Shown in pieces: positions 2,929 through 62,314 of a stretch of 64,000 nucleotides of DNA. A model generated the notes under the pieces. That model was not told the origin of the DNA. It was given only the letters and a program-made list of their open reading frames with translations, and made no database searches. The translations under genes and the position numbers were made by a program. The stretch's first letter is position 1. Each line of letters opens with the position of its first letter. The DNA comes from Pascua guehoae (taxonomy: Eukaryota > Basidiomycota > Tremellomycetes > Trichosporonales > Trichosporonaceae), in NCBI GenBank assembly GCA_001600415.1, contig BCJX01000001.1:62001-126000 (forward strand), read 5' to 3'.

Positions 2929-5733
2929 ATGAGTTCCCACTCTTCCGACCCCAACCGAGATAGTCCCTCGGATCAAGATGGTCCGTCGGCCCCAAAGCGC
3001 GCTCGGCGAAACGTTAAACATGTTTCCCGAGCATGTGACAGTTGTAAATCAAAGTCAGTTACCCCGGACGCATACTGATGAGTCGCGACAATGACTGATC
3101 CGAATGTAGGAAAACAAAGTGCGATGGTGTCCACCCAACCTGTGGTCCTTGCTCCGCCAAGAGCTGGACATGCACTTACACCAAGGCGGATGGCAGAAAG
3201 TGGGTCCACACTGTTGTTAGGTTATGGCATCTAAGACGTGCAGAAGCAAGGGCGGGAACTCTGGCCAACTACGAGATCGTATCGGCTCCCTTATCGACCT
3301 GCTCAGCTCCAAAACGGATCTACTTGTGTCTAGGACGCAGTCGCCGACGGCTGCGCGTCCACAGTCGCCATCATCGGTGTCCCAATCCCCATCGCAACCC
3401 CAACCACGTCAGTTATCTTTGGGAGCCGGCTTTCGTAGTGGCTGACGCCTTCCGCAGCCGCACCCCCTGTCGTAGAAGAGGCCGACGGGGGTGCGTACGA
3501 TTACCTCGAGCCCTCGTTCGACGACGGTCACATCACATCAACGTCGCTACCGAACGAGTCGCTCACACTGGTCAACTTGACTTCGTCACTGGATACATCA
3601 GCCCCGCCTGCCGCAATGGTCGAATCCTCCCCAAACAACGCCTCGGATAAATCACACAGCCCATTGATACCCGCTTCTCTGGGGTCGCAGGGCCACCAGG
3701 TCACACCCCTCGGTGATCGTCTCAAAGTGAGCAACCATCTTCAGCTGTCCCCTCCTCGCCGCTAACATGATGCCAGAGGTCCGACGCAGGGACGCTCATG
3801 CAATTCGGCCCAACCTCTCTGTGGTCGTACATTGGCGAGTCGAGTGGTGTCCAGTTTCCACCCACGCTGAGCGCACCCGATCTTCGCCCCGGCGACTGGA
3901 TCGACTGGGCTCGGCCTCTTCCATCAGAGCTCAACATTTCCAAATCTGTGCACGACGCGGCTCTGGCGTGCTTTGCCGCTTACTATGCACCATGGTTCAT
4001 GATCGTCGACATACCTGCCTTCTTGCGCGACCTCGAGGTATGTAACCTCGTTACAAGAATACCTCGTCCGACGCCCTCACCATCTCGCACACCGTCATAC
4101 TCGCCACTATTGCACAACTGCGCACTCTACATGGGCCTTCATATCGGGCGTGAAGAGTGGTGGGAGACAATCGAGTCGTTTGATGCCGTCATGGACAAGC
4201 ACTGTGCCGGGCTGATTATGAATGAGACCGAGGACCCCAGTATGAGTACTCCTCAGGCCTTGGCGCTCTACGCTTCGTGAGTGGTTCCATGGTACAGTAT
4301 GGCTAACAGGATACTCAGATGCTTGAATGTGCGCAAGGACAAGTCCGCGAGAAACACAGGCTACATCTACTTTGGTATGGCGTTCGCGGCAGTGCAGGCT
4401 GTAAGTGGAACCCCAAAGACCTCGCTAACAAGTGTGCAGCTAGGCGTCAATTTAAACGTTCGTGCCGGCAACATTATGGAGCTGACGTCCCTAGTGTGAC
4501 GACCTCGTGGACAGCGGACAGATGACAGGCGAGGAGCGAGATCTACGTAATGCGTGCTTCTGGACCATTTTTCAGCAAGACGTGGTGAGTGCTGCTCCGC
4601 GACTTGATGTGTGTACTAACGTCCAGCTTCGCGCAATTGCAGCAGGCCGCCCACCGATGTTAGGTCAGCACATCGATGTGGCTTTTCCAAGAATCGACCC
4701 TACTGTCGACGAAATCTCCTGGTACTCTGCTAGCCGACAGAAGATGTCTTCAGTTAGTGGAAGAAAGAGTATGCGCTCTACCGTGTTCCACTGGTCGACG
4801 AGACTACACTGCCTCCTTCGCAAGGTCATTGAGACGACCTTGTGAGTTCTCCTGCCAGCGATATTCGCCTCGTCACTGCTAATGACAGGTTCTCGCCCAA
4901 TGGCGATGTCGCAAACCGCGATGCACGCGTTGTTACCATTGCGACCGAGCTCGAGACGTGGCATCGCGAGCAGCCTTTCCCCCATCCATCGAGGTACCCG
5001 CTCCCACATCTGCTCGTCATGCACATGATGTATCATCTTACCCAGATCTACCTCTTCCGACCATTCTACCGCGCCGAGCTCGACATCAACCCCCCTCCGG
5101 CTCAACGGTGTGACCAGGCCGCTGCGATGTGCGCCGACCTTCTCAAAGTAGGTACAGACACATCGATTCTATGAGGAAGAATTAACCCGGCTACAGGTCT
5201 ACGCTGCCGAGCATGGGCTGCGCAACGGCCCTGCGACATTGAGTACGTCGTGCATCTCCATGCCTGGCACTTGACTAAACCTTCAGTTCCCATTGTATTT
5301 GCAAGCGCCACTGTCCATCTACTTGCCTTGCTCTCGCAATCCGGGCCGACAGAGTCCCAACCTCAGCTTGACAGCTTTAACGAATCGGTAAGCAGTGATT
5401 GGTGTTGGCTGGGCGAAGCTGACTCGACAGGTTCAGTTCATGGGCGAACTCGGTAAGTGCCGCAGTAGGACACCACAGCCAGCATTCTACTAACTATCAC
5501 CAGCGCAAACCTGGATCGAGGCTCGTCGAGGGCTACAGGTGCTCAACACGCTACAGGCCGAGTGGCCACCCTACCGAGAGACCACGACCGCCGCCAACGA
5601 GCAGAATACCGCCAGCGCAGAGCTAGACTTTTCCGCCGAACTGCCAAGGGAATTGCACGAATGGCTTCTTGGGACGACGTACTATGATATTCTACACGCA
5701 AGTAATGTTCTCGGTCCAAACATCACATTGTAG
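2929..5733 (+). CDS. Zn(II)2Cys6 transcription factor with fungal-specific TF domain
   Basis: A nuclear DNA-binding regulator. The ATG at 2929 opens a basic N-terminus (PKRARRNVKHVSRACDSCKSK). An intron at about 3051-3109 splits the zinc cluster; after joining, the six cysteines are spaced C-x2-C-x6-C-x6-C-x2-C-x6-C (CDSC, C, C, GPC, WTC), the canonical binuclear cluster. A Ser/Gln/Pro-rich linker follows (about 3330-3450). Then comes a fungal-specific TF middle region (PF04082-like), with LWSYIGESSG, a WFMIVD segment, RNTGYIYFGMAFAAVQ and ACFWTIFQQD, then AGRPPMLG. Many short introns interrupt it. The last exon ends LHASNVLGPNITL, then TAG. The target genes are unknown; the nearest downstream gene is 5-oxoprolinase. 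Family call is firm; exon detail is approximate. Confidence 0.85.
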
Positions 5734-59810: not shown

Positions 59811-59818
59811 TATATAAA
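59811..59818 (+). promoter_or_regulatory. TATA box of the secreted peptidase gene
   Basis: TATATAAA, 62 bp before the ATG at 59880 and followed by a C/A-rich leader. It is a clear core promoter for a regulated gene. Confidence 0.75.
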
Positions 59819-59879
59819 GGGCGAGTTGGCTTGCAGTCGAGGACGCCTCACTCCACCTACCGACACTCCTTTCCCCAAC

Positions 59880-61208
59880 ATGCGCTTTTCACTTCACATT
59901 CTTTTCCCCCTCCTAGCCACGTCTGTACTGGCGTTACCCACGCCCGAGGCCGAGACCGACCTCACCGAGCGGTGGGAGTACGACCCTGCCCATGGCGGCA
60001 GCCTTGCGGCGCGTATGCCGCACGACTGGCACGACGGCGAGCGCGACTATACCGAGGTGCGCGAGTTTGAAGCGCGCGACCTCGACGAGCGCGACTGGCA
60101 CGATGGCGAGCGCGACTATGTCGAAGTCCGCGACCTCGACGAGCGCGACCTCGACGAGCGCGACCTCGACGAGCGCGACTTGCACGATGGCGAGCGCGAC
60201 TATGTCGAGGTGCGCGAATTCGAGGAGCGCGAGTTTGAGAGCGAGGAGCGCGACGTGAGTCTGCCCGACATATATCACTAGCCATCGACTGACAAATTGC
60301 AGTTTGACGTCGAGGAGCGCGACGACGCGTTTATGCTCGACAAGCGTGCGGCCCTGACGGGTGCCCAGGTGACGGCCTCGTCCAACGCCAACGTCATCAA
60401 GGCGCTGCAGTACCTCCTGATTGCGCGCGGACACAAGGTCGACGTCGACGGCAGCTACGGCCCCAAGACCAAGGCGGCGGTGACGAGCTTCCAGAAGGCC
60501 TCCAAGCTCACTGCCGACGGCAAGGCCGGCCCCGCCACGCTCGGTGCGCTCGTCTCGGTGGTCAAGTCGGGTAACACGGGCAACGTTGTCAAGGCTGCCC
60601 AGTCTGCGCTCAACGGCAACGGCGCCAAGCTCGCTGTCGACGGCTCGTTTGGCGCGGGGACCAAGACGGCGGTCGTGGCGTTCCAGAAGAAGAAGGGTCT
60701 GGGGCAGGACGGCACCGTGGGTCCCCTGACGTGGACAGCGCTCTTTGGCGGCAAGGGTGGCTCTACCGGTGGCGGCGGTGGTGGCGGCAGCTGCGACAGT
60801 GTCAAGGCCGGCGTGAAAAAGGACCAGACGGTCGTCGCCGCGTCCAACATTCGCGTCAACAAGTGTCTCGCGCCGCGCGTCAAGCAGATGGTCGCCGACG
60901 CCAAAAAGGCGGGCGTCACCCTCACTGCAAACTCGTCGTGGCGCGACCCCGCTCAGCAGATTGCCCTCCGCAAGCAAAACTGCGGCACGTCCCACTATGA
61001 CATTTACCAAAAGCCCTCGACACAGTGCAACCCCAACACGGCCATCCCGGGCACGTCGCGCCACGAGCGCGGCCTCGCCATCGACTTTGCAAACTGCCAA
61101 AAGGGCACAAAGGTCTACAACTGGCTCGTCAAGAACGCGTCCAAGTACCACCTCAAGAACCTCGTCACCGGCACCGAGTCCTGGCACTGGAGCTGGGACG
61201 GCAACTAG
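59880..61208 (+). CDS. Secreted peptidoglycan D,D-carboxypeptidase-like protein (VanY/M15B) with two peptidoglycan-binding domains
   Basis: Two exons (59880-60254, 60303-61208) encode 426 residues. Residues 1-18 are a signal peptide (MRFSLHILFPLLATSVLA). Residues 19-140 are a charged, repetitive pro-region ending LDKR, a Kex2-type site. The mature part holds two PG_binding_1 modules: about 148-205 (VDGSYGPKTKAAVTSFQ) and about 213-270 (VDGSFGAGTKTAVVAFQ). A Gly-rich linker leads to a VanY/M15B domain (about 285-426). Zinc ligands are His379 and Asp386 in SRHERGLAIDF and His420 in TESWHWSW; Glu417 is the catalytic base position. All are intact. Such enzymes trim or cleave bacterial cell-wall peptides. 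Fungi lack peptidoglycan, so horizontal acquisition and an antibacterial or bacteria-feeding role are inferred. The single intron sits at the pro-region boundary, showing adaptation to the host. Confidence 0.92.
60022..60238 (+). repeat. Coding tandem repeats of the pro-region
   Basis: A unit encoding HDGERDY(T/V)EVR(E/D) occurs three times, at about 60027, 60099 and 60183. Between the second and third copies a 15-bp unit (CGCGACCTCGACGAG) repeats three times in a row and encodes RDLDE. The array is in frame, so copy-number change would only lengthen or shorten the pro-region. Confidence 0.85.
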
Positions 61209-62314
61209 GCTTGCCCCGGGTCTGATGTCGATGCTGCACTACAGCAGCTGCAACGGCAGCCTTAGGGGTAGTAGTAGTAGCAGTAGCAGTACCAAGTAGT
61301 TCCAAAGTAAGAGTCAAAGACAAACCTAGCAGCGAGATCAAGTAGAAATCAGCCGAATGAAGTTCCTCTCCCTTTCTGCAGGCCATGCGCGTCTCCACTG
61401 ATACGAAACAGCTGAACGTGAACGTGCAGTTGACCTGCGGAGCTTCGTGCTTTCGGCTCGATGGGATACCAGTGACCACCGCTACTCACGTGCAAGAGTC
61501 TGCGTTTGGGGTACTGTCCGGCTCGGCTCCATACAGCGCGTCTACGTCTTGCCCCCAACGTGGTGATGGGGGACATGTTGGCGACGAGTATTCCAAGACG
61601 GAGCAGAGGAAGAACAANCGGGGGGGGGGGGGGTCGACTTGGAAATGGTCCATGGCTAGAGAAGGAGATGGCTTGCGATGTGTGGTGTGTCTGTCAAGAG
61701 TATGGTTGCGGGAGGAGATGATCAAAAGGCGAAGACGTGTGTGATGTCGCTCCCAAACGCTCTGCACTGCAGTTGGGTGGGCAATGGTGGCCAAGTAGCA
61801 AGTGGGCAAGAGGTGGGCAAGTGGAGGGCGAAGGGCTGGCTTGGCATGGCGCCACCGTATCGGCCCGATTGCTTCCGGTCGATCAGAAACATTTGATCGA
61901 CAGCTCGCGATTGATCTTTACCGGGCCACTGGTGCTCTTGTCGCGTGCAACCCTCGCCCTAAGTCGCTCGATAACTCATGACACATTTCACTATCAATGC
62001 AAACACGTTGATGCTCACTCTTGAGCGCCAACGTGCATCCCGTAAAAGCTCTGTGGTATCTGTAGACGGCTGGGGTGAACGATGGGGCTTCATCGTCGCC
62101 TTGCGCACCGGCCACAGCGGTCCGTGAGCTGTGGTGGCTGAGACTATTACTCTGTCCTGCCTGTATCGCAAACACAATTAGCTTGGGATCCAGGTTGGGG
62201 GCCAGCCCTGGGAACTGCCATGTTGCACATGCCACGGACCATTCAGCCTGCTTGCTTAGCTAATCGTCTCCTGCATCCTCTCTCTTTGCCACATCACCCT
62301 CGGACCACGCGACA
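61209..62314. other. Intergenic region with an assembly ambiguity
   Basis: I see no gene. A GTA-type trinucleotide run (GTAGTAGTAG) lies at about 61269, and one undetermined base followed by a G-run at 61618-61633. Confidence 0.5.
61618..61633. other. Undetermined base followed by a 14-base G homopolymer
   Basis: One N at 61618, then C and a run of 14 G. It marks locally poor sequence quality and is relevant to the two apparent frameshifts elsewhere in the window. Confidence 0.9.

Follow-up and report, generated by a model that had tools for sequence, protein, structure and literature searches.

A bacterial-type cell wall peptidase, probably of Actinobacterial origin, in the yeast Pascua guehoae, and the apparent reuse of its wall-binding head on lipid hydrolases

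Results

Analysis of a 64,000-nucleotide stretch of the Pascua guehoae genome (the window, G000:C1:62001-126000, from a 33.6-Mb assembly of 28 contigs) drew our attention to a gene at window positions 59880-61208, which starts at C1:121,880 on a contig of 3,969,531 bases. We consider it likely, judging from the sequence, that this gene was acquired horizontally from Actinobacteria, that it encodes an intact wall peptidase of the VanY (M15B) type, and that this enzyme belongs to a set of proteins serving extracellular attack on, or feeding from, bacteria. We also lean towards the reading that the Trichosporonales captured a peptidoglycan-binding head together with the peptidase and then placed the head as an address tag on a lipase and a phospholipase A2 (PLA2) of their own. 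The gene structure, the domains, the catalytic residues, the fold, the Actinobacterial relatives and the occurrence of one head clade on three enzyme types are all computed results.

A spliced gene for a two-module wall peptidase

The coordinates proposed in the first-pass annotation were borne out, as exons 59880-60254 and 60303-61208 join in frame to encode 426 amino acids. The features of the gene, all on the plus strand, are as follows.

59811..59819, plus: TATA-like element TATATAAAG, motif only, about 70 nucleotides before the ATG
59880..60254, plus: exon 1, with the start codon, a hydrophobic secretion leader (residues ~1-19) and most of the acidic repetitive pro-region
60255..60302, plus: predicted intron, 48 nucleotides, phase 0, GTGAGT...CTGAC...TTGCAG, with an in-frame TAG
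60303..61208, plus: exon 2, with the end of the pro-region, the mature enzyme and the stop codon
60342..60347, plus: Lys139-Arg140, putative Kex2-type processing site (from sequence)
60396..60551, plus: PG_binding_1 module 1, Pfam residues 157-208 (G000:C1:122396-122551)
60579..60743, plus: PG_binding_1 module 2 (G000:C1:122579-122743), with structure matches
60747..60791, plus: Gly-rich linker (from sequence), model confidence low at exon-2 residues 153-161
60849..61202, plus: M15B (VanY) peptidase domain, by Pfam, alignment and structure comparison
61062-61064, 61083-61085 and 61185-61187, plus: His379, Asp386 and His420, presumed metal ligands
61176-61178, plus: Glu417, presumed catalytic residue

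The intron, already claimed at first pass and here again predicted from the sequence, holds an in-frame stop, and the 426-residue product therefore requires splicing. The TATA box invoked earlier as a sign of expression stands as a motif, and the reading frame that had been cited beside it is indeed intact. The hydrophobic N-terminus suggests a putative signal peptide, and the repetitive pro-region described before is real, since the motif ERD occurs nine times in residues 19-139 and never after them, and Lys-Arg follows at 139-140; the mature protein would begin at Ala141.

The order of domains likewise held up, with matches that, as far as sequence profiles go, are far beyond chance. PG_binding_1 (PF01471) matched in two stretches (102.8 bits, E 1.1e-29, over the curated cut-off) and VanY (PF02557) matched residues 308-425 (51.8 bits against a cut-off of 25, E 9.1e-14). 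His379, Asp386, Glu417 and His420, which would have the metal-ligand and catalytic roles usual in the M15 family, are present as had been noted. Their alignment columns do not vary across the 23 sequences, the window protein counted, and the same holds for Cys 289, 313, 352 and 367. The predicted structure recovered a VanY/LdcB fold, its active-site motif aligned with the VanYB structure 6a6a, and its head matched the solved peptidoglycan-binding modules 5tv7, 5nm7 and 6tci. The enzyme may cleave either the D,D- or the L,D-bond of stem peptides.

Membership in a vancomycin-resistance VanY cassette was considered and rejected, the contig being fungal and the 10 nearby frames scanned matching PhoD (two), a methyltransferase (one) or no family (seven). 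A profile search of the whole assembly found no VanY match besides this one. That the gene is contaminating bacterial DNA is scarcely credible. Close bacterial relatives do share its architecture, and its third codon positions have a GC content (GC3) of 0.85, a little higher than in the other frames of at least 300 amino acids in the window (0.52-0.82; PhoD exon 0.79). Against contamination stand the intron with its in-frame stop, the secretory leader, and two further head-bearing genes, located on other contigs, in which leader, intron and head follow one another in the same way. Moreover, the 3.97-Mb contig opens with telomere-like CCTAACCCCC repeats, which we take to be the Cryptococcus-type telomere repeat, 122 kb from the gene, and a homologue in Trichosporon asahii lies on a 3.79-Mb contig. 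A likely low-quality spot of the assembly, an unresolved base adjoining a run of G, lies 3' of the gene at window positions 61618-61633.

Relatives and bacterial origin

A protein search with residues 141-426 as the query gave 443 matches; of the best 120, most of them without an organism name, 22 covered at least 92% of the query. Our full-length set comprised P0001-P0021 and P0121, without P0065, which covers 93% of the query at 39% identity. Over the 22 aligned rows, identity to exon 2 ranged from 42 to 61%, and from 42 to 57% once the three counted as fungal were set aside. The organism-named rows in P0001-P0021 are the Actinobacteria Propionibacteriaceae Y1700, Nakamurella and Microlunatus, along with T. 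asahii CBS 8904, whose protein P0011 has the same architecture as the window protein. P0011 is recorded as a Curculin-domain lectin, a name probably carried over, because Pfam finds PG_binding and VanY families only. The other two counted as fungal, P0001 and P0004, are metagenome proteins so classed on leader remnants (for example ERRAALGSGAQ, compared with DKRAALTGAQ here).

The bacterial alignment was also used to scan genome_contigs, which covers 84,980 species of bacteria and archaea. This gave 165 encoding stretches, and the best 80 of them, kept as loci, are by title mostly Actinobacterial. Near-whole matches to the alignment were four: L002 (a Propionibacteriales metagenome-assembled genome), L003 (Agromyces terreus), L004 (Nakamurella) and L018 (Cellulomonas, 33%); the first three entered the full-length tree and the last was left out. 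In that tree (26 rows, 329 columns) the window protein, P0001, P0004 and P0011, the last on a long branch, form a clade (96/98). The bacterial acquisition proposed at first pass is thus upheld, with bacterial nearest neighbours and a narrow fungal clade nested inside, two of whose four rows are metagenome proteins. The best 120 of the 443 matches gave no sign of an old and widespread family of fungi lacking a bacterial sister, their only fungus-named entries being T. asahii and two from Cutaneotrichosporon oleaginosum (head only), fungal genome collections not having been searched. Acquisition from Actinobacteria is, on this sequence evidence, well supported.

A phage endolysin, rather than a bacterial chromosome, is a very improbable source of the gene. 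Endolysins do carry peptidoglycan-binding modules, and 242 of 50,697 phage records matched; however, none of the 242 covers 80% of the query, all are below 60% identity, and the 12 listed match the head only. The 30 loci on viral contigs are either weak, the best of them reaching 31% over 110 residues, or no longer than 20 residues. The bacterial-type relatives, at 42-57% identity, span almost all of the mature protein.

The catalytic domain taken alone gave a less uniform picture. In a VanY-only tree (built from 62 of the 150 rows that matched, over 124 columns, with the wider bacterial family as outgroup) the window protein falls in an 18-row set (95/90) which also holds P0001 and proteins of Propionibacteriales and Nakamurella, while P0011 and P0004, the latter paired with P0029 (94/80), lie outside it. 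Forcing the four-row grouping on this tree cost 9.9 log units and was not rejected (approximately unbiased test, p-AU 0.334); without P0011 the constraint gave p-AU 0.116, and for the window protein with P0001 alone 0.102. This tree is weaker and partly discordant. The bacterial origin is firm, but it is unproven that the catalytic domain was acquired just once, and separate acquisitions or conversion of that domain may have occurred. We nevertheless think it unlikely that only the head arrived once and was then shuffled, with the M15B domain taken up or replaced at least twice in different yeasts. Such a history would suit the outlying position of P0004 and P0011, and also the nearest non-fungal row to the fungal heads, which is the GH19-type protein P0063 (88/81); it sits poorly with the full-length clade, with the fact that the VanY grouping was not rejected, and with the complete three-part architecture already present in bacteria.

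Elsewhere in the VanY tree lie P0061, P0078 and P0091, proteins of about 260 amino acids with a Cys-rich N-terminal part and a eukaryote-like leader, which perhaps represent a separate transfer to another eukaryote. P0139 (290 amino acids), Cys-rich and eukaryote-like, combines a VanY domain with a pro-like junction of the form KR-D and is distant from the window gene at 35% identity.

The head on lipases and phospholipases

PF01471 occurs in the genome as six modules at three loci, namely the window gene, C9:253928-254275 and C17:664037-664378, and in all three genes a phase-0 intron is predicted between the leader exon and the head exon. The gene on C9 (L089, G000:C9:250500-258500; head within 3366-4058 and lipase frame at 4219-5481, both plus strand) reads as leader exon, intron, two PG_binding_1 modules, a Pro/Thr-rich linker and a class 3 lipase (PF01764, E 7e-6) with the motif GHSQG. 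Its counterpart in Cutaneotrichosporon oleaginosum, P0072, joins a head to Lipase_3 (E 1.8e-12), and the two are 61% identical in the head part and 40% in the lipase part. The gene on C17 (L088, G000:C17:660500-667500, minus strand, ~3000-4320) has a head followed by a PLA2-like C-terminus whose PF06951 score, 25.2 bits, falls short of the cut-off (34). Single proteins with a head and a group XII-like PLA2 exist in P0141 (C. spelunceum) and P0140, where PF06951 behind two PG_binding_1 modules scores 45.8 and 47.8 bits, respectively, against the same cut-off; in the structure model of P0140 nearly all residues after 158 have a predicted local distance difference test score (pLDDT) below 50.

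In a tree of heads, built from 44 of the 82 rows that matched and over 123 columns, the nine counted as fungal, among which P0001, P0004 and P0140 lack organism names, form one clade (97/91), next to P0063, and the lipase and PLA2 heads form a subclade within it (100/98). Removing T. asahii and three other rows left the clade at 98/90. Forcing a separation between the lipase and PLA2 heads and a group of VanY-type heads, three of them fungal and 15 bacterial, gave p-AU 0.031, a value that counts little because the group was named after the tree had been seen and seven bacterial VanY-type rows were left out. As all nine heads fall in one clade, one bacterial head would therefore have been reused as a wall-targeting tag.

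The same genome also has head-less copies, with no PG_binding_1 match nearby, of the PLA2 (at C22 and C9:209512) and of the lipase (at C19 and C13), which makes the lipid enzymes seem native and the head imported. Identity between the P0141 PLA2 and the head-less PLA2 on C9 is 49.5%; P0140 and P0141 share 39% in their PLA2 parts, and each is 41-50% identical to the head-less copies, so that fusion to PLA2 may have occurred either once or repeatedly. With the same leaning as for the address-tag reading, of which this forms part, we see the set as fungal modular enzymes targeted to the wall and directed against wall, lipid and membrane, built in the manner of bacterial toxins with exchangeable effectors.

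Proposed role

We propose that the peptidase would be synthesised as a preproprotein and leave the cell through the secretory pathway, where cleavage behind Lys-Arg140 is probable. Outside the cell its two modules would hold it on bacterial peptidoglycan while the presumed zinc peptidase trims or cuts stem peptides at the D,D- or L,D-bond. Duplicates of the acquired head, arising in the fungus itself, would have been joined to a fungal class 3 lipase and a group XII-like PLA2. These head-bearing lipid hydrolases, the peptidase and the GH24 lysozymes of the same genome could together attack or digest bacteria, to the benefit of the yeast.

The phage-type GH24 lysozymes are four (L132-L135, by profile search at G000:C7:860633, C6:1081716, C6:1050476 and C4:2089665; E 4.0e-40 to 6.4e-35), of which two were rescanned and confirmed. 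The frame of L134 opens with a stretch resembling a secretion leader. Together with the lipase and PLA2 genes bearing the same head, these lysozymes strengthen the case, made at first pass, for use against bacteria or feeding on them, and the shared wall-binding part on fat-splitting enzymes suggests a home-made tool set against bacteria. The role that we favour, with good but not full confidence, is that bacteria are digested or killed outside the cell.

Scavenging alone is a plausible though less probable account, in which the peptidase and its head-bearing relatives kill nothing and digest the wall fragments and lipids of dead bacteria for D-Ala, peptides and fatty acids. It fits the facts that carboxypeptidases trim rather than lyse, that lipases and phospholipases are digestive in many fungi, and that Cutaneotrichosporon oleaginosum, among the named relatives, is an oil-accumulating yeast. 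On the other hand, the GH24 lysozymes could open intact walls, and a wall-binding head on a phospholipase would suggest intact cells as targets.

Besides the GC3 of the gene and the discordant placement of P0004 and P0011 in the VanY-only tree, with the separate acquisitions or domain conversion that this may reflect, several points weigh against acquisition of the peptidase, redeployment of its head and use against bacteria. P0001 and P0004 are putatively fungal, as judged from their leader remnants. The exon structure of L089 is only partly worked out, and in L088 the linker is interrupted by a run of N and the frame changes before the PLA2 catalytic motif, so that this copy may be broken or mis-assembled. 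NlpC/P60, GH25 and Amidase_2 had no match in the genome at E 0.001, where introns could hide weak ones. Finally, a pure D,D-carboxypeptidase alone would not lyse bacteria.

If our proposal is true, one transferred gene was turned by a eukaryote into several targeted weapons or digestive enzymes, which would offer natural templates for wall-targeted antibacterial enzymes and make antagonism between fungus and bacterium directly testable with a handful of proteins.

Comparison with known systems

The closest likeness is to secreted Actinobacterial proteins with two peptidoglycan-binding modules before an M15B domain (P0012, L003 of Agromyces terreus, L004/P0018 of Nakamurella and P0019 of Microlunatus soli), which share the domain order, linker position, active-site motif and four invariant cysteines; exon 2 is 53% identical to P0012 (Propionibacteriaceae Y1700) and 45% to each of P0018 and P0019. 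They differ in having bacterial-type leaders (from sequence), a single uninterrupted frame and no comparable Lys-Arg pro-region. With the VanY/LdcB D,D-/L,D-carboxypeptidases (M15B) the window protein shares the fold and the SxHxxGxAxD...ExWH residues; unlike them, it has no resistance cassette, two preceding peptidoglycan-binding modules and extra conserved cysteines. The Zn D-Ala-D-Ala peptidase 1lbu also has a PG_binding_1 module ahead of an M15-type domain, but one module only, and its catalytic domain is presumably that of another M15 subfamily, as we take it to be the M15A enzyme of Streptomyces albus G.

Transfer of wall hydrolases to eukaryotes is already known. Bacterial GH25 muramidases have been transferred to an archaeon, a plant, an insect and fungi, with a phylogeny that points to an Actinobacterial donor, none definitely named, and with an aphid gene fused to a eukaryotic carboxypeptidase domain (PMC4241558). 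That case likewise places a bacterial wall hydrolase in fungi; it differs in enzyme class and in being ancient in Dikarya, and the available part of the source reports no wall-binding head spread over unrelated enzymes. According to PMC11708051, the median number of genes derived from prokaryotes is highest in Tremellomycetes, at 47, and fungi have 20 lysozyme genes gained by transfer; in its main text, as available, 'peptidoglycan' and 'carboxypeptidase' are used 0 times each. PMC7954357 is also among the nearest parallels; neither it nor the other papers cited in this section describe the present case in the parts available. Among the matches listed from the open-licence literature we found no report of M15B in fungi, nor one in which a eukaryote has put a wall-binding module gained from bacteria onto lipid-splitting enzymes of its own.

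Use against bacteria has been reported from experiments for the NlpC/P60 hydrolases of Trichomonas (PMC6299479) and for archaeal wall hydrolases (PMC12352652). As far as the accessible text of these sources goes, both are likewise peptidoglycan hydrolases of non-bacteria and differ from the present protein, known here from sequence, in host and domains. Polymorphic toxins of bacteria that carry Tox-PLA2 and PGB1 domains follow other secretion routes, and the accessible part of their description reports no fungal fusion of a peptidoglycan-binding head with PLA2 (PMC3482391). The same source notes related PLA2 domains in secreted fungal proteins and describes effector domains exchanged behind a common front part, which is the arrangement that the yeast enzymes appear to share.
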